From: a bacterium
Lineage (GTDB): Bacteria; Armatimonadota; JACIXR01
Direction of reading: 5' to 3'
Length of the DNA: 64,000 nucleotides
Assembly: GCA_014360495.1 (NCBI GenBank)
Contig: JACIXR010000004.1
Location: 131,983 to 195,982 of the forward strand
Part shown: positions 5,313 through 60,273 of the stretch, piece by piece
Position numbering within the stretch: the stretch's first letter is position 1
Layout of the letters: each line of letters begins with the position of its first letter
The notes under the pieces: generated by a model
Seen by the model: only the letters and a program-made list of their open reading frames with translations
What the model was told of the DNA's origin: nothing
The model's database searches: none
Made by a program: the position numbers and the translations under genes

Positions 5313-5567
5313 CCTCGCATCTATGGGTATAGGTTTTAGCGACAATTCCTTCCGTAGCGGGATAAGAGCTCCATTGTCATTGCGAGCCTTCTGCGGAGCA
5401 GAAGGCGTGGCAATCTCGTATTTAATCATAGAGAAGGAATGAAATTGCCAGGTCCTCCTTTGTCGGACTCGCTTCTTTGGATATAGATTTTTATATGAAA
5501 CATTTTGTTTTTCGTTATTTGAAATCCGCCTTTTTCAAAAACCTTTACCCATGCCAGCAATGACAGT
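5313..5567. repeat. 255-bp long dispersed repeat, copy 1
   Basis: This stretch matches 49892-50146 with no indels and only about six substitutions by eye. It is a composite of shorter motifs found between operons across the window: CATTGCGAGCC, GGCGTGGCAATCTC, TTTTCAAAAACC and ATGCCAGCAATGACAGT. It contains a perfect hairpin CCTTCTGC-GGA-GCAGAAGG. A further repeat piece (GCCACGGGCTCCC and its complement) precedes it from 5290. The rest of the gap, 5568-5875, holds a short repeat fragment and no gene that I can recognise. Confidence 0.85.
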
Positions 5568-49604: not shown

Positions 49605-49634
49605 ATTATACTACTTTTGGGCTTTGTTATACAA
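49605..49634 (-). promoter_or_regulatory. Promoter of the xylB operon
   Basis: Minus-strand TTGTAT (49629-49634), 18-base spacer and TATAAT (49605-49610), then AAAGGGGGT before ATG 49573. Confidence 0.55.
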
Positions 49635-49739
49635 GGATTTTTTAAATAAATGAGAGAGGCGTGATGATTTCGTATTTAGACAAAGAGAAATTTGTTCATC
49701 ACTTCGCTCCCTGCGATGAGAGGGAGTTTTGTCATCGCG

Positions 49740-49891
49740 GGCTTCATGTAAAAGAGACTTATTTACAGCGATAGCTGGTATGGGTAAGGGCTTTGAAAAT
49801 AGGCGGGACTGGCAAGTTCTATGCTTTTTTCTCATTGCTCCCCGTAGGGAGCCCGTGGCAATCTCATGAGATTGCTTCGTCGCTTCTCGCT
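49740..49891. repeat. Dispersed repeat cluster preceding the long repeat
   Basis: GATAGCTGGTATGGGTAAGG (complement of the ATGCCAGC motif), TCTCATTGCTCCCC, a GGGAGCCCGTGGCAATCTC piece and GAGATTGCTTCGTCGCTTC. Earlier in the gap (49635-49739) only degenerate fragments are seen. Confidence 0.65.
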
Positions 49892-50146
49892 CCTCGCATC
49901 TATGGGTATAGGTTTTAGCGACAATTCCTTCCGTAGCGGGATAAGAGCCCCATTGTCATTGCGAGCCTTCTGCTTCGCAGAAGGCGTGGCAATCTCGTAT
50001 TTAATCATAGAGAAGGAATGAAATTGCCAGGTCCTCCTTTGTCGGACTCGCTTCTTTGGATATAGATTTTTATATGAGACATTTTGTTTTTCGTTATTTG
50101 AAATCCACCTTTTTCAAAAACCTTTACCCATGCCAGCAATGACAGT
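49892..50146. repeat. 255-bp long dispersed repeat, copy 2
   Basis: Matches 5313-5567 in the same orientation without indels. The hairpin stem CCTTCTGC/GCAGAAGG is identical but its loop is TTC instead of GGA. From 50147 to 50382 only short degenerate pieces follow and no gene is seen. Confidence 0.85.
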
Positions 50147-50382
50147 GAGGTTTTGACCTCGCTATGGCAAAGAGTTGTCATTTAAAACCTACACCTATAG
50201 ATACGAGGGTTCCAGGAGGGAGCCAATGGCAATCTTATACTATGAAGAAACCTAATTGTCATTGAGAAGCTTCTAATAAGTGAAGACTGGAGATTAGAGA
50301 AAGAGGCTGGCTGAGCAATTAAAGAGTAGGAAATTGTTTTTGAAAAAGTGGAATCAACCCCGTTATGAAATCCCATATTTCA

Positions 50383-50411
50383 TTGACCCGTTTCCCCCTT
50401 CGTGGTAAAAT
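50383..50411 (+). promoter_or_regulatory. Promoter of the STN-coaX-acyl reductase operon
   Basis: TTGACC (50383-50388), 17-base spacer and TAAAAT (50406-50411), then GAGGTGAT before TTG 50430. Confidence 0.65.
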
Positions 50412-50429
50412 TCTTTAGAGGTGATACAA

Positions 50430-51248
50430 TTGAGAACCATTGCTTTGTTAACCATTTGCCTTTATGTTTCCTCTATTTGGGCAGGGCAGATAGCCTTAGA
50501 CCTCCAATCCACCCCCGTGAACGAGGTCCTCACCAAGCTATCCCAGGAGACAAAGGAAGAGATAATCACCGAGGGCACTTTACAAGCGAGACTAACTGGA
50601 AGCATTCGCTGTTCCACCCTTGAGGAAGCCCTGAACGCGCTTACCGTTTTGCAGCCGAGTTTGAAATGGGCAAAGCTGGTTTTCCCATCCGGTGAGAAGA
50701 TATCCAAAGAAGACATAATTATCACAGCAAAAGCTCTTAAAATGGTTAGAATCTCCAAGGTTGTTGCAGAAGGTAAGGATGGCGATTTGGTCTTTATGCG
50801 TTCCAGCAAGGCTTCTTTAGGGGAAAAGAATTTGAGAACTGTATATGTCGTTTGGGAGGAAATCGGTCCCGCAAACATAGCTCAGCTCGCTTCCATCTCA
50901 TCTGCGAAGTTATCGCCCCAAGATTATCTCAACCTTAACTGGTTTATGCTCAACTCTTTCCTTTCTATGACTCCTGAGGAGAGAAAGCAGGTGTTATTCG
51001 GGGCATTTAATATGATTTTCAATGACCCCGCTCTTCTTCAGAGGATAATGAGCGAATATTTCTCTATGTTGACAACCCTCAGTCCTGAGGAGATGGGGCA
51101 ATTGATTGGCGCTTCATTTAGGGCTATGCAATCAATACCGCCGGAATTTTGGAATCAGATGATGCAATCAATGAGTCAATGGATGCAGATGATGGGACCC
51201 CAGCTCCAGCAAATGATTCCTCAAATGCCCGGAGGTGGCACTCAATAG
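50430..51248 (+). CDS. Exported protein with an STN-like (secretin/TonB short N-terminal) domain
   Basis: 272 residues from TTG 50430, chosen because GAGGTGAT ends four bases upstream; a GTG at 50421 overlaps that SD. The signal peptide is RTIALLTICLYVSSIWAG. The next ~65 residues (IALDLQSTPVNEVLTKLSQE and IRCSTLEEALNALTVL) match the STN fold that precedes secretin and TonB-receptor barrels. No barrel follows; instead there is a helical region and a Met/Gln-rich tail (MMQSMSQWMQMMGPQLQQMI). First gene of a coupled operon; its TAG stop overlaps the apparent coaX start. Function unknown. Confidence 0.7.
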   Translation: MRTIALLTICLYVSSIWAGQIALDLQSTPVNEVLTKLSQETKEEIITEGTLQARLTGSIRCSTLEEALNALTVLQPSLKWAKLVFPSGEKISKEDIIITAKALKMVRISKVVAEGKDGDLVFMRSSKASLGEKNLRTVYVVWEEIGPANIAQLASISSAKLSPQDYLNLNWFMLNSFLSMTPEERKQVLFGAFNMIFNDPALLQRIMSEYFSMLTTLSPEEMGQLIGASFRAMQSIPPEFWNQMMQSMSQWMQMMGPQLQQMIPQMPGGGTQ

Positions 51249-52012
51249 GAAAGTCTCTCCTCGCCATAGACATAGGGAACACGAAGATACACATCGGCTT
51301 ATTTGAAGATAAGGAGCTTGTTAGTTCCTTTAGTCTATCATCTCGTCGCTTGCTCACCTCCGATGAGTTCTCGTTAATGCTTGAAAGCCTTCTGAATCGC
51401 TTTGATAGGAACATCCAATCCATTGAGGAAGTGGTGGCGGGAAGCGTTGTTCCCTCATTAAATGTAATAATAAAAGAAGCGTTCGCCTCTTACGGAAAGA
51501 AAGCCTACTTTATGGGAGAGGATTTCCCAGCGCCGATTCGTATCCTTTACAAAAACCCCGAGGAAGTGGGGATGGACAGATTAGCGAACGCAATTGCCTG
51601 TCGTGAGCTCTATGGATGTCCAGCGATTATAGTTGATTTCGGCACCGCTATAACCTTTGATGTCCTCTCCGGGAAAGGGGAATATCTCGGTGGTATAATC
51701 GCCCCTGGAGTTGAGATATCTCTTCAGGGATTGTTTACCGCAACTGCCCGCCTTCCAAAAGTAGATATAGATGTTCCCAAGGAGGTAATAGGGAAAAGCA
51801 CGAAAGAAGCGATAAGAAGCGGAGTCGTCTTCGGGACGGTTGAGTTAGTTGAGGGGTTAATTGAAAGGATTAAGGAGGAAATGGGGGAGACGATAATCGT
51901 CTTGACGGGAGGGATGGGCGAATTCTTTGCTAAGCAGGTTTGTTTCTCCTGCGTTGTTGATAAATTTTTAACATTGGAGGGCTTATGCCTTGCCTGGGAA
52001 AAGAGTAGTTAG
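51245..52012 (+). CDS. coaX: Type III pantothenate kinase CoaX, apparent ATA start
   Basis: 255 residues. It makes 4'-phosphopantothenate, the first committed step to CoA. Motifs: LLAIDIGNTKIHIGLFEDKE (phosphate loop), EEVGMDRLANAIACRELYG, IIVDFGTAITFDVLSGKGEY, LGGIIAPGVEISLQGLF and IIVLTGGMGEFFA. Homologs begin one or two residues before LLAIDIGN. The only codon there with correct SD spacing (GGAGGTGG at 51231-51238) is ATA 51245, which overlaps the upstream TAG stop. The in-frame ATGs at 51149 and 51179 lie inside the previous gene. The enzyme call is firm; the start is uncertain. Confidence 0.88.
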   Translation: MGKSLLAIDIGNTKIHIGLFEDKELVSSFSLSSRRLLTSDEFSLMLESLLNRFDRNIQSIEEVVAGSVVPSLNVIIKEAFASYGKKAYFMGEDFPAPIRILYKNPEEVGMDRLANAIACRELYGCPAIIVDFGTAITFDVLSGKGEYLGGIIAPGVEISLQGLFTATARLPKVDIDVPKEVIGKSTKEAIRSGVVFGTVELVEGLIERIKEEMGETIIVLTGGMGEFFAKQVCFSCVVDKFLTLEGLCLAWEKSS

Positions 52013-52901
52013 CGTGAGCTTGGGTTCCTCTAAGAGGGATAGCAGAGTGGAGATAGAACTTCTTGGCATCCCTTATGTTATGGAGAGAATAGGAACGGAT
52101 GGAGATTTCCAGAAAGCCCTCTCTTTGATAAAGGAATTAGATGGGAATGTAGATGCGATTGGGCTGGGGGGAATAGACCTTTATCTTATAACTGGATGGA
52201 AGAAATACATAATAAAGGATGCAAAGAAGCTCGCTGATGCGGCGAAGGTCACCCCGGTGACCGATGGTGCTTTCTTAAAGCTTGCCTTGGAAAAGGAAGC
52301 TATAAATATGCTCCAAAGGGAAGGGATAGTGAATTTCAAGGAGAAGAAGGTTATGCAGATAACGGCTGTTGATAGATTCGGGATGGCTTCAGCTCTTGCT
52401 TCTTTGGCAAAGGAGATTGTTTTCGGGGACTTGATGTTTTCCTTCGGTGTCCGCATCCCCATGCGTTCAATAAGAGCGGTTAATATTCTGGGTTTCCTTT
52501 TCCTCCCCTTTATCTGCAGGCTTCCCTTCAAAATGCTATATCCAGTTGGGCAGGAGCAAGAGAAGCCTTCAGAGCCGAAATTCGTTGATTTCTTCCAATG
52601 GGCTGATGTGATTGCGGGAGATTTTCATTACATAAAACGCTATTCTCCTCCCGAGCTTCCCGGAAAGATAATCATAACAAATACAACCACGAAAGAAGAT
52701 GTTAACATGCTAAAAAGTAAAGGAGTTAAGATGTTGATAACTACAACTCCTGCTATACAGGGAAGGAGTTTTGGGGTGAATGTTTGGGAGGGGGCTGTGG
52801 TGAGCTATTTGGGGAAGAGGGCGGACGAGATAAGCGAGGAGGAATTCTTGGAGGTCATGCGTTCCTTCGGCTGGCAACCGAGGGTGGAGGTGTTTGAGTG
52901 A
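51990..52901 (+). CDS. Conserved protein of the group annotated as quinate 5-dehydrogenase-like
   Basis: 303 residues from TTG 51990, seven bases after GGAGGG; it overlaps the coaX end by 23 bases. KRVVSVSLGSSKRDSRVEIE, VDAIGLGGIDLYLITGWKKY and KKLADAAKVTPVTDGAFLKL are memorable conserved stretches. I recall this family being labelled quinate 5-dehydrogenase in Firmicutes-like genomes, but I see no Rossmann GxGxxG and no shikimate-dehydrogenase motifs. The label may rest on gene neighbourhood only. The 3' end overlaps the acyl reductase gene by four bases (GTGA), so the two are surely made together. Confidence 0.6.
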   Translation: MPGKRVVSVSLGSSKRDSRVEIELLGIPYVMERIGTDGDFQKALSLIKELDGNVDAIGLGGIDLYLITGWKKYIIKDAKKLADAAKVTPVTDGAFLKLALEKEAINMLQREGIVNFKEKKVMQITAVDRFGMASALASLAKEIVFGDLMFSFGVRIPMRSIRAVNILGFLFLPFICRLPFKMLYPVGQEQEKPSEPKFVDFFQWADVIAGDFHYIKRYSPPELPGKIIITNTTTKEDVNMLKSKGVKMLITTTPAIQGRSFGVNVWEGAVVSYLGKRADEISEEEFLEVMRSFGWQPRVEVFE

Positions 52902-53965
52902 ACAGATTCGCCTTTATCATCCATCCCATATCACCAGAGGATATAAAGAAAAGCCTGAAACCTCTTGCCATTCTACCGGTTCCGTTATTGGAGGCGATAA
53001 CGAAGCATTTCCCTCCGTTTAAGGTATCCATGATAAGAGGAGTGCGTTCGCCCACGGGAGCGGAAACGGAGGGATGGTTCATAGGAATTCCCTTAACGCC
53101 TCGCCAATTTCTTTCTTATCCCCTTGATTTCGTTTACAAAAGGCTTATTCAAGCGGGGAAACTGGCGGAGAAGCTGGGAGCAAAGATAGTGGGTTTAGGG
53201 GCTTTTACCTCCGTTGTGGGAGATGGAGGGATAACGCTTGCGAAGAACATCAATATTGGGGTGACGACGGGAAACTCATATACGGTCGTAACTGCTGTTG
53301 AGGGAGCGATAGAGGCGGCTAAATTGGTGGGTATAAATCCGAAAGAAGCAGTAGCGGCGGTTGTCGGAGCGGGCGGTTCAATAGGCTTTACATCCGCGAG
53401 GTTACTGGCGAGGGAAGTGCCGAAAATGAACATCATAGGAAGAAGCGTAGAGAAATTGGAGAAAGTGAAAGAGACGATAGAAGGGGAGACGGATTGTAAA
53501 GTTGAGATAAAGAGGAATGTAAGCGAGGGATTGAGGGAAGCGGATATAGTGCTCACTGTGACATCGGCGATGGAGGAGATAATCTTCCCCGAGGATTTAA
53601 AGCGAGGAGCGGTGGTCTGCGATGTGGCTCGTCCAAGGGATGTCTCAAAGAGGGTGGAGGAGGAAAGGAGGGATGTATTGGTGATAGAAGGTGGGGTAGT
53701 GGCGGTCCCTGGGGATGTTGATTTCGGCTTTGATTTCGGATTTCCTCCCAAGACCGCTTACGCCTGTATGGCGGAGACCATGATTTTAGCCTTGGAGGGA
53801 TACGAGGGAAACTTTACTCTGGGGAAGGAGGTAACTTTAGAGCAGGCGGATACGATAGCGAAGTTAGCGAAAAAGCATGGCTTTCGCCTCGCAGGGTTCA
53901 GAAGCTTTGAGAAGCCAGTCCTTCCCGAGAGGATAGAGGAGGTCCGAAGGCTCGCAGGCAGATAG
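52898..53965 (+). CDS. Long-chain acyl-ACP reductase-like protein (cyanobacterial AAR-like, COG5322-type)
   Basis: 355 residues from GTG 52898. The architecture follows cyanobacterial acyl-ACP reductase: KIVGLGAFTSVVGDGG, then TTGNSYTVVTAVEGAIEAAK, the NADPH Rossmann loop AAVVGAGGSIGFTSARLLAR near residue 150, VIEGGVVAVPGDVDFGFDFG, and TAYACMAETMILALEGYEGN. Cys290 in YACMAE lines up with the catalytic Cys of AAR, which forms the acyl-thioester. That similarity comes from my memory of the AAR sequence. It may reduce an acyl-ACP or acyl-CoA to an aldehyde. No aldehyde deformylating oxygenase is in the window. Alternative: a semialdehyde or shikimate-type dehydrogenase. Confidence 0.72.
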   Translation: MNRFAFIIHPISPEDIKKSLKPLAILPVPLLEAITKHFPPFKVSMIRGVRSPTGAETEGWFIGIPLTPRQFLSYPLDFVYKRLIQAGKLAEKLGAKIVGLGAFTSVVGDGGITLAKNINIGVTTGNSYTVVTAVEGAIEAAKLVGINPKEAVAAVVGAGGSIGFTSARLLAREVPKMNIIGRSVEKLEKVKETIEGETDCKVEIKRNVSEGLREADIVLTVTSAMEEIIFPEDLKRGAVVCDVARPRDVSKRVEEERRDVLVIEGGVVAVPGDVDFGFDFGFPPKTAYACMAETMILALEGYEGNFTLGKEVTLEQADTIAKLAKKHGFRLAGFRSFEKPVLPERIEEVRRLAGR

Positions 53966-53981
53966 GATAGAGGTGAACAGA

Positions 53982-55100
53982 ATGACTAAAAAGGAGATGA
54001 ATTTGAGAATCTTCAAAGGCGAGGAGATTCCTCATCCTTTCTTCCAGCCGAGATTAGAGCCTTGGTATGCTTGGCATAAGCAATTCAACAAACTGCCGCC
54101 TCGCTACCAGGATAAAAGTCTATTGGAGCTCTATGATGAGCTGGATATCTCAATGAGATATGTTCACTACTACACGGGAATGCCCGACCCAGTGGAGGTT
54201 AAATACAGCGAGAAAGTGAAGATTAATTACGAGTTCGGCGAAAACGAGGCAATGGAGATTATAGAGACACCCTTCTGCCAACTCGTTAGGAAGCTGAAAA
54301 TCAATCCCGATGGAGTCTGGCATACAGTGAAATTCCCCGTGGGGAATTCCCTTGAGGAGCTAAGAGGTTTGAAGTGGCTTTATCAAAACACAACTTATCA
54401 TTTCTCAAAGGAGAAGTTTCAAGAGGGCAGCGATTTCATCGGGGATAGGGGAGAGCCCCAGTTTTGGGTGCCGAAAAGCCCTTACCAAGCCCTTGCCCAG
54501 ATTTGGATGAAGTTGGACCAATTCATATATGCCTTAAACGACCACAGGGAGGAAGTGGAGGATTTGATGAAGGCAATAGACGATGCATATGACCCACTTT
54601 ATGAGGAAATCATCGGTTCGGGGATGGTGAGGATTATAAATTTCGGGGAAAATATTCACGACCATCTTTTCTCTCCAGCTTATTTTGAAAAATACTTGAT
54701 TCCCTTTTACGAAAAGCGTTCAGGTCAATTGAGGAAGGCGGGAATCTTCACTCACATCCATATAGATGGTTATTTCAAGAGCCTTTTGAAGTATCTCAAA
54801 TATCTGCCATTTGATGGCTACGAAGCCCTGACTCCTTTGCCTCAAGGGGATGTGAGTTTGGAGGAAATAAAGGAGCATATAGGGGATAAGGTGCTCCTGG
54901 ATGGTTTGCCAGCCGTCCTTTTCTCTCCCGAGATTTACCCTTCAAGAGAACCATTGGAGGAGTTCACGGAGAAGATAATAAAGATGTTTCACCCAAGGTT
55001 AGTTCTAGGGGTTTCCGATGAGGTGCCGGAAGGCGGAGGCGAGGAAGCCCTTGAGAGAGTTAGATGGGTGGCAAACTATTGCAAAAGCTTTAGGAAGTGA
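53982..55100 (+). CDS. Uroporphyrinogen decarboxylase-like (URO-D superfamily) protein
   Basis: 372 residues from ATG 53982 with GAGGTGAAC just upstream; a GTG at 53973 is too close to that SD. The URO-D barrel shows in LEPWYAWHKQFNKLPPRYQD, SPAYFEKYLIPFYEKRSGQL, IFTHIHIDGYFKSLLKYLKY (metal-binding His region), GYEALTPLPQGDVSLEEIKE and RLVLGVSDEVPEGGGEEALE at the end. It is probably a methyltransferase-like or unknown-substrate enzyme rather than the haem enzyme. Last gene of the STN-coaX-acyl reductase operon, 16 bases after the reductase. Only weakly similar by eye to the URO-D-like protein at 7918. Confidence 0.78.
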   Translation: MTKKEMNLRIFKGEEIPHPFFQPRLEPWYAWHKQFNKLPPRYQDKSLLELYDELDISMRYVHYYTGMPDPVEVKYSEKVKINYEFGENEAMEIIETPFCQLVRKLKINPDGVWHTVKFPVGNSLEELRGLKWLYQNTTYHFSKEKFQEGSDFIGDRGEPQFWVPKSPYQALAQIWMKLDQFIYALNDHREEVEDLMKAIDDAYDPLYEEIIGSGMVRIINFGENIHDHLFSPAYFEKYLIPFYEKRSGQLRKAGIFTHIHIDGYFKSLLKYLKYLPFDGYEALTPLPQGDVSLEEIKEHIGDKVLLDGLPAVLFSPEIYPSREPLEEFTEKIIKMFHPRLVLGVSDEVPEGGGEEALERVRWVANYCKSFRK

Positions 55101-55242: not shown

Positions 55243-55995
55243 ATGGTGATAGACGCTCATCTCCACTTGCGAGACGATGTTTATGTAGGAGAGGAAGGCA
55301 CTCCCGAGAACCTCGTCAAAATGATGGACGAGGTGGGGGTTAATAAGGCTGTCCTCCTACGACTCTATGTTCCCGCAAGAAAAGCCATGGAGGAACTTCA
55401 AGATGCGAGGAGTAAATATCCCAGTAGATTTATCCCTTTCTTCTACGCCCTTCCTGACTTTGTTGAACCGACGCTTAAATTAACGGAAGAAGCGATCAAG
55501 AAACGAGGCTTTAAGGGGATTAAAATGCACGCTGGAATTTGTCGCCTTGAGAGTTATATCGTTGACCCCGTCTTCGCTTTGGCGAGCGAGTTAGATGTTC
55601 CCCTCCTAATAGACCCGGCGGGCGATTACCAAAATACGGAGAGGCTAGCGAAATCTTTCCCCAAAGCGAAGATAATCGTAGCCCATTTAGGTTATTATCT
55701 CTGTTCCGATGGCGACCTCGTTGACCGTTTCATTAACTTAGCAAAAGATTATCCCAATCTTTACCTTGACATCAGCGGAGTTCTATTGGTTGATAAAATT
55801 GAGAAGGCGATTTCTGAGGTTGGGTATGAGAGGGTAATCTGGGGAACGGATGGACCGAGTAATCAGCCAGACCCTGTTTCATTCACAAGGAAAGAGATGG
55901 AGAAGGTGTTAAAGCTTGAAATAGAGGAAAGGAAGAAGAAAGCGATTTTAGGAGAGAACATCGCCAATCTTTTAGGAATAGAAAACGATGAATGA
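55243..55995 (+). CDS. Amidohydrolase-family (metal-dependent TIM-barrel) hydrolase
   Basis: 250 residues. MVIDAHLHLRDD gives the HxH metal ligands on strand 1. GFKGIKMHAGICRLESYIVD, KIIVAHLGYYL (metal or catalytic His) and ERVIWGTDGPSNQPDPVSF (late Asp) complete the amidohydrolase-2 set seen in ACMSD/resorcylate-decarboxylase-like enzymes. Substrate unknown; reactions in the group are hydrolytic or decarboxylating. It starts right after a promoter and is followed 15 bases later by a related protein that lacks the ligands. Confidence 0.82.
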   Translation: MVIDAHLHLRDDVYVGEEGTPENLVKMMDEVGVNKAVLLRLYVPARKAMEELQDARSKYPSRFIPFFYALPDFVEPTLKLTEEAIKKRGFKGIKMHAGICRLESYIVDPVFALASELDVPLLIDPAGDYQNTERLAKSFPKAKIIVAHLGYYLCSDGDLVDRFINLAKDYPNLYLDISGVLLVDKIEKAISEVGYERVIWGTDGPSNQPDPVSFTRKEMEKVLKLEIEERKKKAILGENIANLLGIENDE

Positions 55996-56010
55996 AGAGA
56001 GGTGTTGCCG

Positions 56011-56691
56011 ATGGAGATAATAGATGTAAATGTTCAATGGGGTTTTTACCCCTTAGCGATGATTGACGCCAGTCCTCAGAGGGTTTCCAATTTATTAAAG
56101 GAAGCGGGAATAAGCAAAGGCTTGGCGATTTCCTTTAAATCTTCGTTCTTATCCTATAGGGAAGGGAATAGGGAAACGCTCTATATATCTCAGCAAAATC
56201 CTTTTTTCCTTCCTGTTTTCGCCGTAGACCCAAGGGATTATCCGAGGTGTATGAAGGAAATAGAGGAAGCGAAAGAGAAGGGCTTCATTGCCCTTCGTCT
56301 ATTCCGCAGGCACTCTGAGAACGGAACTGTCTTGAAAGAGATATTCCGTTCTGCTGCTAAGCTATCCCTTCCCATCCTATGCGATTTCGTTCCTCTTGTT
56401 TTGGATATAACTCCTTTGCCTCCCGTAGTTCTCCTTGAGATACCGCTTGAGGAGCTTGGGGAAGCTTTTTACCTCCTTGAAAGGGAAGAAGTATACATAG
56501 AATTCTCTCCTTTTCTAATTGGCTCGGGAAGGGCAAGCGATAATTTGAAGGGCAAACTTCTTTTCGGCTCCCGCCTTCCCTTCCTTCCACCATTTCTACA
56601 TTTGAAATTAATTGAAGAACAATTCCCTTCATCTGAGGATAGGGAGTTGATTTTGAGCCTAAATGCAAAGAAGATATTTTCTCTTTCTTAA
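56011..56691 (+). CDS. Degenerate amidohydrolase-like protein lacking metal ligands
   Basis: 226 residues from ATG 56011 (AGAGAGG eight bases upstream). MEIIDVNVQWGFYPLAMIDA takes the place of the HxH strand of the preceding protein, with Asn-Val-Gln instead of His-x-His. KGFIALRLFRRHSENGTVLK corresponds to the KGIKMH strand, and GKLLFGSRLPFLPPFLHLK to the WGTDGP end. A fold without the metal site suggests a non-catalytic partner of the neighbouring amidohydrolase, or a different active site. Its 3' end overlaps the porin-like gene by 29 bases. Confidence 0.65.
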   Translation: MEIIDVNVQWGFYPLAMIDASPQRVSNLLKEAGISKGLAISFKSSFLSYREGNRETLYISQQNPFFLPVFAVDPRDYPRCMKEIEEAKEKGFIALRLFRRHSENGTVLKEIFRSAAKLSLPILCDFVPLVLDITPLPPVVLLEIPLEELGEAFYLLEREEVYIEFSPFLIGSGRASDNLKGKLLFGSRLPFLPPFLHLKLIEEQFPSSEDRELILSLNAKKIFSLS

Positions 56692-58789: not shown

Positions 58790-59470
58790 ATGCTGACTGA
58801 GGAACAATTGGCGAAAATTATAGCGGAGAAAGTTGCCGAGGAGCTCCTCACTTTTAGACGCTGTGAGGAGTGTGTTCGCAATAGGGATATCAGGAGGATT
58901 CCAGATAACTTCATTCCCATAGGGGTTTCCGCGCGTCATATGCATATCTCCCAGGAAGACCTTGAAGCCCTTTTTGGGAAAGGTTATCAATTAAGAAAAG
59001 AGAGGGATTTGTATCAGCCGGGAGAGTTCGCTTCATCTGAAGTTGTTCAAGTAGTCGGTCCAAGAGGAGTTCTTAGGGTAAGAATCCTCGGACCTGTGCG
59101 GAAACAAACCCAAGTGGAACTTTCCCGCACCGATTGCATAACCATAGGCATAGATGCGCCCTATAAATATCCAGGCGATTTAAAAGGAGCTGCCCCAATA
59201 ACGATAGTCGGTCCCAAAGGGGCAATCTACAAGGAAGCGGCGATAATTCAAGCTCGCCACATTCATACCCCACCCGAAGCAGCTCAGCGATTGGGTATAA
59301 AGGATGGCGAGCTCGTGAGCGTTAAAGTCGCTGGGGAGAGAGGCGTGATATTCACGAATGTTTTGGTGAGAGTGTCTGAGAGATACCTACTTCAAATGCA
59401 TTTAGATACGGATGACGCTAACGCCGCGGGGGTAAACTGCAATAATTTGGCTGAATTAGTGAGGCTTTAG
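58790..59470 (+). CDS. PduL-type phosphotransacylase
   Basis: 226 residues. The two duplicated PduL His motifs are clear: FIPIGVSARHMHISQEDLEA near residue 47 and IIQARHIHTPPEAAQRLGIK near 157, which hold the two zinc ions. GAAPITIVGPKGAIYKEAAI and LQMHLDTDDANAAGVNCNN complete the family. It interconverts acyl-CoA and acyl phosphate (acetyl or propionyl). The extra ~35 residues at the N-terminus include CEECVRN and resemble a microcompartment-targeting or metal-binding arm, but no shell genes are present. Its TAG overlaps the GTG of the aspartate dehydrogenase gene, so they are coupled. Confidence 0.9.
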   Translation: MLTEEQLAKIIAEKVAEELLTFRRCEECVRNRDIRRIPDNFIPIGVSARHMHISQEDLEALFGKGYQLRKERDLYQPGEFASSEVVQVVGPRGVLRVRILGPVRKQTQVELSRTDCITIGIDAPYKYPGDLKGAAPITIVGPKGAIYKEAAIIQARHIHTPPEAAQRLGIKDGELVSVKVAGERGVIFTNVLVRVSERYLLQMHLDTDDANAAGVNCNNLAELVRL

Positions 59471-60273
59471 TGATTAGGGTAGGCATAGTTGGCTGCGGGA
59501 CTATAGGAAGTGAGATTGCTGTAGCGATAGATGAGGGGAGGGTGAATTGTGTCCTTGTCGCTTTATGGGATAAGGAGAGGGAGAAAGCCGAGGTTCTTCA
59601 AAATCGCCTAAAAAATCAATCCCCGAGAATTGCTCCACCTCTGTCCTGGGTGGATGAGGTGGATTTAATAGTGGAATCGGCTTCCCAAGAAGCAGTAGGC
59701 GAGTTATTACCTCTTGTCATTGAAAAGGGAAAGGATATTTTAGTGATGAGCGTGGGCGGATTGATAGGGAGGGAGGAATTGATAAACAGAGCGAAGGAGA
59801 AAAATTGTCACATCTTCATTCCCTCAGGTGCCCTCGCTGGCTTGGACGCCGTTCAATCCGCAAATATAGGGGAGATAAAGAGCGCTACTCTCACAACCAT
59901 CAAGCCACCAAAGGCTTTATCAGGCGCTCCTTATATAGCCCAGAAAGGCATTGACCTTTTCTCCTTCAATGAACCAACTATCATATACGAGGGAAATGCC
60001 AGAGAAGCTATAAAGTTCTTCCCAGCAAATGTCAATGTAGCAGCTGCTTTATCCCTGGCGGGAATAGGCGTTGATAAAACAAAGGTAAGAATCGTAGTTG
60101 ACCCAAGGGCAAAGACGAATATCCATAAAATAGAAGTAGAAGGCGATTTCGGGAAAATAACCACTCAGACGGAAAATAATCCTTCCCCCTCCAACCCTCG
60201 CACAAGCTACCTTGCCGTTCTCTCCGCTATTGCCCTCCTTAAAAAATTAACTTTACCACTGAGAATCGGGTGA
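59470..60273 (+). CDS. nadX: L-aspartate dehydrogenase
   Basis: 267 residues from GTG 59470. NAD(P)-binding MIRVGIVGCGTIGSEIAVAI, then LIVESASQEAVGELLPLVIE, HIFIPSGALAGLDAVQSANI and NVNVAAALSLAGIGVDKTKV are the aspartate dehydrogenase signatures. It oxidises aspartate to iminoaspartate (for NAD synthesis) or runs in reverse to make aspartate from oxaloacetate and ammonia. Because an ACT protein and aspartokinase follow in the same operon and no nadA/nadC is present, supply of aspartate for the aspartate family is the more likely role. That is an inference. Confidence 0.88.
   Translation: MIRVGIVGCGTIGSEIAVAIDEGRVNCVLVALWDKEREKAEVLQNRLKNQSPRIAPPLSWVDEVDLIVESASQEAVGELLPLVIEKGKDILVMSVGGLIGREELINRAKEKNCHIFIPSGALAGLDAVQSANIGEIKSATLTTIKPPKALSGAPYIAQKGIDLFSFNEPTIIYEGNAREAIKFFPANVNVAAALSLAGIGVDKTKVRIVVDPRAKTNIHKIEVEGDFGKITTQTENNPSPSNPRTSYLAVLSAIALLKKLTLPLRIG

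Follow-up and report, generated by a model that had tools for sequence, protein, structure and literature searches.

Reading a 64,000-nt stretch of Armatimonadota DNA (hereafter the window; coordinates are positions within it), we found two overlapping genes that may belong to a membrane-lipid pathway. One, starting at position 52898, encodes a 355-aa protein resembling cyanobacterial acyl-acyl carrier protein (ACP) reductase (AAR), which produces aldehydes from fatty acids, and the other, starting at 51990, encodes a 303-aa protein of an uncharacterised family that we call the partner. The best single explanation for the pair, which we put forward tentatively and with a little less than even confidence, is a route from acyl-thioester through fatty aldehyde to alkylamine for membrane lipids. 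We favour it because an AAR-type reductase is combined with class III aminotransferases and with PlsY, and because some of the groups concerned are known to produce alkylamine phosphoglycolipids. It is carried by the fold and motifs of the reductase, the gene pair, its distribution, and fusions with PlsY and with aminotransferases. Genes for alkylamine membrane lipids were not found named in the literature, and the pair, with its wide distribution, offers a testable candidate for making them.

An AAR-like protein with an intact catalytic cysteine

The original prediction had recognised the layout of AAR in three motifs of the 52898 protein, all of which are present: TTGN (residues 123-126), VVGAGGSIG (155-163) and YACMAE carrying Cys290. 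This cysteine aligned with Cys294 of AAR, the catalytic role of which has been described (PMC7089970). In an alignment of 87 sequences, Cys was kept in 82 and lost only in five divergent copies; GxGxxG and TTGN were present in nearly all copies, with TTGN replaced by TNGG in the PlsY fusions. The dinucleotide recognition loop of AAR (GATGDIG type) was matched by VGAGGSIG at residues 156-163.

The two best NCBIfam models for the protein were PigE, at 213.3 bits and for the N-terminal domain only, and AAR (TIGR04058), at 115.6 bits. The first score falls below the PigE criterion of NF053554 (an aminotransferase fusion, >850 bits) and the second below the equivalog cut-off of 449.7 bits. Sequence searches of the PDB returned PigE (4ppm, E 1.3e-31) and AAR (6jzq, E 1.2e-24), with the match spanning residues 39-341. 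The AlphaFold model (pLDDT 94.7) has the three-domain AAR fold, and its seven best PDB matches in Foldseek were all cyanobacterial AAR (E to 9e-25 for 6jzy; TM 0.75-0.78), followed by the TAD domain of carmabin (E 8e-18). Because of these AAR and PigE sequence and fold matches, together with Cys290, TTGN and GxGxxG, the protein is predicted to work like AAR, yet it lies outside the formal AAR equivalog. In both fold and sequence it belongs with AAR and PigE rather than with shikimate- or ornithine-type dehydrogenases, and the nucleophile is conserved. The proposal that a non-photosynthetic bacterium has an acyl-thioester reductase resembling AAR was thus upheld by fold, sequence and motifs.

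A partner with a distantly similar fold and its own conserved residues

The partner matched no Pfam or NCBIfam family, had no sequence relative in the PDB even with a 79-sequence profile, and had no match among plasmids. Its AlphaFold model (pLDDT 94.8) retrieved the carmabin TAD domain first (E 2.5e-7) and also AAR, at TM ~0.5 and among glutamate-dehydrogenase-type folds. Profile comparison with AAR (hhalign) was collinear over 250 columns and not significant (E 0.089, probability 0.65%). The catalytic Cys and the GxGxxG loop of AAR are absent from the partner, and nine polar residues are invariant (R33, D92, K97, E101, D128, R129, D147, Y184, D211). These invariant residues suggest that the partner has an active site of its own. 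It is probably distantly related to the AAR fold and has probably changed its function, and it may be an AAR paralogue. The pairing gives a first functional frame to a family that is part of the core gene set in at least two phyla yet lacks a Pfam or NCBIfam model.

A conserved helix-turn-helix (HTH) protein of ~190 aa (cluster 3, e.g., L117:5424-5993; L-numbers are compared loci in other genomes) usually lies directly 5' of the partner and was seen at 43 loci. It is possible that it regulates the pair.

Distribution and neighbourhood of the pair

Almost every genome sampled from Armatimonadota and Deinococcus-Thermus has the gene pair, and so do many from Bacillota. The AAR-like protein was detected in 40 of 41 Armatimonadota genomes and the partner likewise in 40 of 41, and both were present in all Deinococcota genomes sampled (61/61 each). 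Where Armatimonadota genomes held both genes, these were adjacent in 20 of 39, always in the order partner then reductase, with gaps from -1 to 317 bases. In a Bacillota-type sample of 200 genomes (the phylum of Thermoanaerobacter wiegelii; counted by hand from tables, with the reductase at E < 1e-18), 133 genomes carried both, 21 the partner only, three the AAR-like protein only and 43 neither, giving a Fisher odds ratio of 91 (p 4e-24, uncorrected for kinship). The partner, which had been called obligate, is thus better described as a near-obligate companion, and the conservation of the gene pair bears out the original prediction.

In Bacillota, the neighbourhood runs coaX-dusB-HTH protein-partner-AAR-greA-lysS, with each genome holding parts of this order (Thermoanaerobacter, Moorella, Heliobacterium, Natroniella and others); dusB, greA, lysS, birA and bioY were named by eye from representative sequences. 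Since coaX belongs to this widespread housekeeping cluster (with dusB, birA, bioY, greA and lysS), we regard it as a neighbour that gives no clue to the pathway and have dropped the earlier suggestion that coenzyme A (CoA) supply signals the pathway. Four loci hold Cys-less, degenerate copies in the AAR slot between the partner and greA (L117:7049-8110, L135:7069-7893, L148:6937-7854 and L136:7069-8091), in which the dinucleotide loop is mostly lost too. At L130, L134, L142 and L144, the slot is occupied by unrelated-looking proteins.

Fusions with aminotransferases and PlsY

In several Bacillota, the AAR-like protein and a class III aminotransferase form one fused protein, with the partner adjoining (L095, L157), and reductase-aminotransferase fusions also occur at L202-L204. 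About 20 partner-positive genomes of the Bacillota-type sample have their sole AAR domain within a frame as long as a fusion (about 850-1080 aa). The link is also seen between separate genes, with the order partner-aminotransferase-SRPBCC-reductase in an Oleimmundimicrobium operon (L118) and an aminotransferase beside the pair in Eremiobacterota (L124). The window's genome (G000; 2.55 Mb, completeness 97%) encodes its class III aminotransferase on an unlinked contig (G000:C12:20416-21672); the protein shares 56% identity with the L118 enzyme and 51% with the L124 enzyme, and orthologues were found in ~38 of the 41 phylum genomes. Published work shows that aminotransferase domains of such fusions from Thermaerobacter and Thermincola are active (PMC10829540) and that TamH coupled to its ACP partner converts a C12 chain to an amine (PMC9594044); for PigE, thioester reduction followed by transamination has been reported (PMC8341465). 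The fusion L202:8081-10615 has the PigE order (reductase, then aminotransferase) and clusters with PigE phylogenetically; an 875-aa protein encoded a few genes away resembles, by eye, an RND/MMPL-type membrane protein.

The second fusion partner is PlsY, with the reductase as the C-terminal half, in six Armatimonadota genomes from three families and in Deinococcota (fusion loci L041-L046, L193-L198 and L201). The PlsY-AAR fusions form a single clade (support 100/100) that includes one Bacillota-type genome. In the Armatimonadota fusions, the PlsY half is recognised with PF02660 at E 6e-42 and its motifs are intact, and no other PlsY was found in these six genomes. Because the fusion is their sole PlsY, glycerolipid initiation in these genomes seems to depend on it. 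The PlsY half is degenerate in Deinococcota, and separate PlsY genes are present in the two Thermus genomes checked. PlsY is separate and not fused in the window's genome (G000:C1:79905-80429).

A possible route to alkylamine membrane lipids

The gene had been tentatively assigned to an aldehyde- or alcohol-forming lipid pathway. A lipid pathway through an aldehyde is retained here, but the fusions and operons with class III aminotransferases and PlsY favour, over alcohols or alkanes, an alkylamine or some other glycerolipid component derived from an acyl chain. For the substrate, the amine product, the lipid and the chemistry of the partner, we propose the following. Cys290 would accept the acyl chain of acyl-ACP or acyl-CoA, which NAD(P)H would then release as fatty aldehyde. 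The class III aminotransferase, although unlinked in the window's genome, would most likely convert this aldehyde to a long-chain alkylamine. The alkylamine would enter membrane glycerolipids, as in the N-glyceroyl-alkylamine phosphoglycolipids of Deinococcus-Thermus and Moorella, and the partner would belong to this route too, whether as a further enzyme or as a subunit of the reductase.

N-glyceroyl alkylamines have been described in Thermus (PMC9636437) and in Moorella thermoacetica (PMC13274423); a Moorella genome with the pair is among our loci (L108). The latter paper cites Bale et al. (2025) for their recent discovery in Bacillota. As for the main phosphoglycolipids of Thermus, PMC9636437 derives their alkylamine chain from an unspecified pathway and does not contain the word "gene". 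Given that the pair is universal in the sampled Deinococcota, present in Moorella, and fused to PlsY and to aminotransferases, it defines a small, concrete set of genes for knock-out.

Several observations weigh against the alkylamine route. Our literature search gave no report of alkylamine lipids in Armatimonadota. Thermoanaerobacter wiegelii carries the pair (L093), yet no N-glyceroyl alkylamines are given for it in Table 1 of PMC13274423, whose relevant column is restricted to compounds related to iso-diabolic acid. The class III aminotransferases are a versatile group, and the one in the window's genome is unlinked to the pair. The reductase domain of PtTamH yielded no amine from C12-CoA (PMC9594044), and a role in acyl or ether lipids would account for the PlsY fusion just as well. 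In addition, 21 of the 154 partner-positive Bacillota-type genomes have no AAR-like protein, and some operons (L117, L135, L136, L148) retain a Cys-less copy in the AAR slot; given these two observations, the partner's function may be separate from reduction.

It is possible, though we think it rather doubtful, that the argument extends further: the AAR-like protein, the partner and the class III aminotransferase would then be core alkylamine-lipid genes of Armatimonadota, Deinococcota and many Bacillota, Armatimonadota would make alkylamine lipids that have gone unreported, and the partner would found a new enzyme family acting on a fatty aldehyde, amine or acyl intermediate.

Alternative explanations

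Aldehydes from the AAR-like protein could instead lead to alcohols or to alkyl- or vinyl-ether glycerolipids, with the PlsY fusion handing the chain to glycerol phosphate. The fusions that serve as sole PlsY in six Armatimonadota genomes, with motifs intact, are in line with this explanation, and ether lipids are found widely among the Bacillota in question (PMC13274423). It is less consistent with the known bacterial route, in which ethers are formed by PlsA/Ger on finished esters (PMC13274423), and with Deinococcota, which carry the pair in all genomes sampled yet are known for alkylamine rather than ether lipids (PMC9636437). It also leaves the aminotransferase fusions unexplained, and we consider it unlikely.

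A regulatory or maintenance role, in which the pair would control acyl-ACP and acyl-phosphate pools (acyl recycling, aldehyde detoxification) and catalysis would be secondary, appears to us similarly improbable. The housekeeping position coaX-dusB-HTH-partner-AAR-greA-lysS would suit such a role, as would the 21 genomes with a partner and no AAR-like protein, the Cys-less copies kept in the AAR slot, and the PlsY fusion with its degenerate PlsY motifs in Deinococcota. Against this, the presence of Cys290, GxGxxG and TTGN in nearly all copies favours catalysis.

Automatic annotation as Shikimate_DH would make the 52898 protein a shikimate-, quinate- or ornithine-type dehydrogenase of a small metabolite, and this Pfam family is the sole one well above its cut-off (51.7 bits; cut-off 24.3). 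The match covers the Rossmann half only (residues 147-255), whereas the AAR and PigE matches extend over residues 39-341, and over the whole chain the fold agreement with shikimate dehydrogenase (AroE; E 2.8e-5, TM 0.34) is far below that with AAR (E 9e-25), which leaves this assignment highly improbable. The AAR fold and motifs would also suit a cyanobacterial-type alkane pathway of AAR and aldehyde-deformylating oxygenase (ADO), which we consider hardly conceivable here, because ADO (PF11266) was found in none of the 41 Armatimonadota genomes while a Synechococcus control was positive, so that the known alkane route is out and an unknown decarbonylase would be needed.

Gene organisation around the pair in the window

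The open reading frames and overlaps of the operon were confirmed by translation, as originally described, and comprise the following features.

50383..50411, + strand: promoter-like site TTGACC-17-TAAAAT, second hexamer preceded by TG; 10/12 matches, just 5' of the first gene
50421..51248, + strand: STN-like exported protein, 275 aa, first gene of the run; open reading frame with start GTG 50421 or TTG 50430
51149..52012, + strand: coaX, type III pantothenate kinase; Pan_kinase E 1.2e-64, NF009855 270.7 bits (cut-off 233)
51990..52901, + strand: partner protein, 303 aa, TTG start; uncharacterised family, two domains folded like AAR/TAD, catalytic Cys and GxGxxG both absent
52898..53965, + strand: AAR-like acyl-thioester reductase, putatively NAD(P)H-dependent, 355 aa, GTG start; PigE/AAR profile and fold matches
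53973..55100, + strand: URO-D-superfamily-like protein, 375 aa; sub-threshold methyltransferase match, 20.7 bits

The GTG start of the reductase overlaps the TGA stop of the partner (52899-52901) in a GTGA, and the TTG start of the partner lies inside coaX, with a 23-nt overlap. The identity of coaX as type III pantothenate kinase is certain from its sequence, which passes the curated cut-off; it overlaps the STN-like gene, and its true start is uncertain. The coaX label of the original prediction therefore stands, and those of the outer genes are tentative. For the first gene product, Pfam detected no STN domain at E<=1 and neither Pfam nor NCBIfam gave a family, so that the assignment fits by eye only; for the last, the 20.7-bit methyltransferase match is the available indication. 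Recurrence of the STN-like gene (neighbour cluster c57) is confined to the same genus, and the URO-D-like gene (c58) lies 3' of the pair within the genus only (L067, L068 and the window). The order coaX-partner-AAR is kept in both same-genus genomes (L067, L068) and in one Abditibacteriales genome (L096). Promoter-like sites overall were no more numerous than in shuffled sequence, and the site at 50383-50411 was the best of them.

Further 3' of the operon lie two adjacent Amidohydro_2-type proteins (55243-56691) and two overlapping genes whose products resemble, by eye, a PduL-type phosphotransacylase and an aspartate dehydrogenase (58790-60273). A dispersed repeat with the core CGTGGCAATCTC had 12 matches in the window at <=1 mismatch (0.21 expected), with copies at 5406, 13580, 17856, 21128, 25535, 40914, 49854 and 49985; several degenerate copies occur upstream of the operon, at 49620-50400.

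Comparison with known systems

With cyanobacterial AAR (TIGR04058; PDB 6JZQ/6JZU/6JZY), the window protein shares the fold, nucleophile Cys, GxGxxG, TTGN and length; it differs in its 24-27% identity in fold alignments, in having another partner gene, and in the absence of an ADO gene. The catalytic Cys is shared as well with the N-terminal domain of PigE and the reductase domain of TamH / PP_2782, the PigE sequence score is above that of AAR, and PigE/TamH-like aminotransferase fusions occur among the relatives of the window protein (L095, L202-L204). Unlike PigE and TamH, the window protein is stand-alone, single-copy and near-universal in its phylum, has an uncharacterised partner, and lies outside any pigment or alkaloid cluster. 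A role in prodiginine-like secondary metabolism was rejected, the gene being single-copy, near-universal and outside a biosynthetic cluster. The carmabin TAD domain (PDB 9E50/9E4U/9E56), which belongs to a natural-product pathway, resembles both the AAR-like protein and the partner in fold. Finally, PlsY forms the N-terminal half of the AAR fusions of Deinococcota and of six Armatimonadota genomes, and is unfused in the window's genome.

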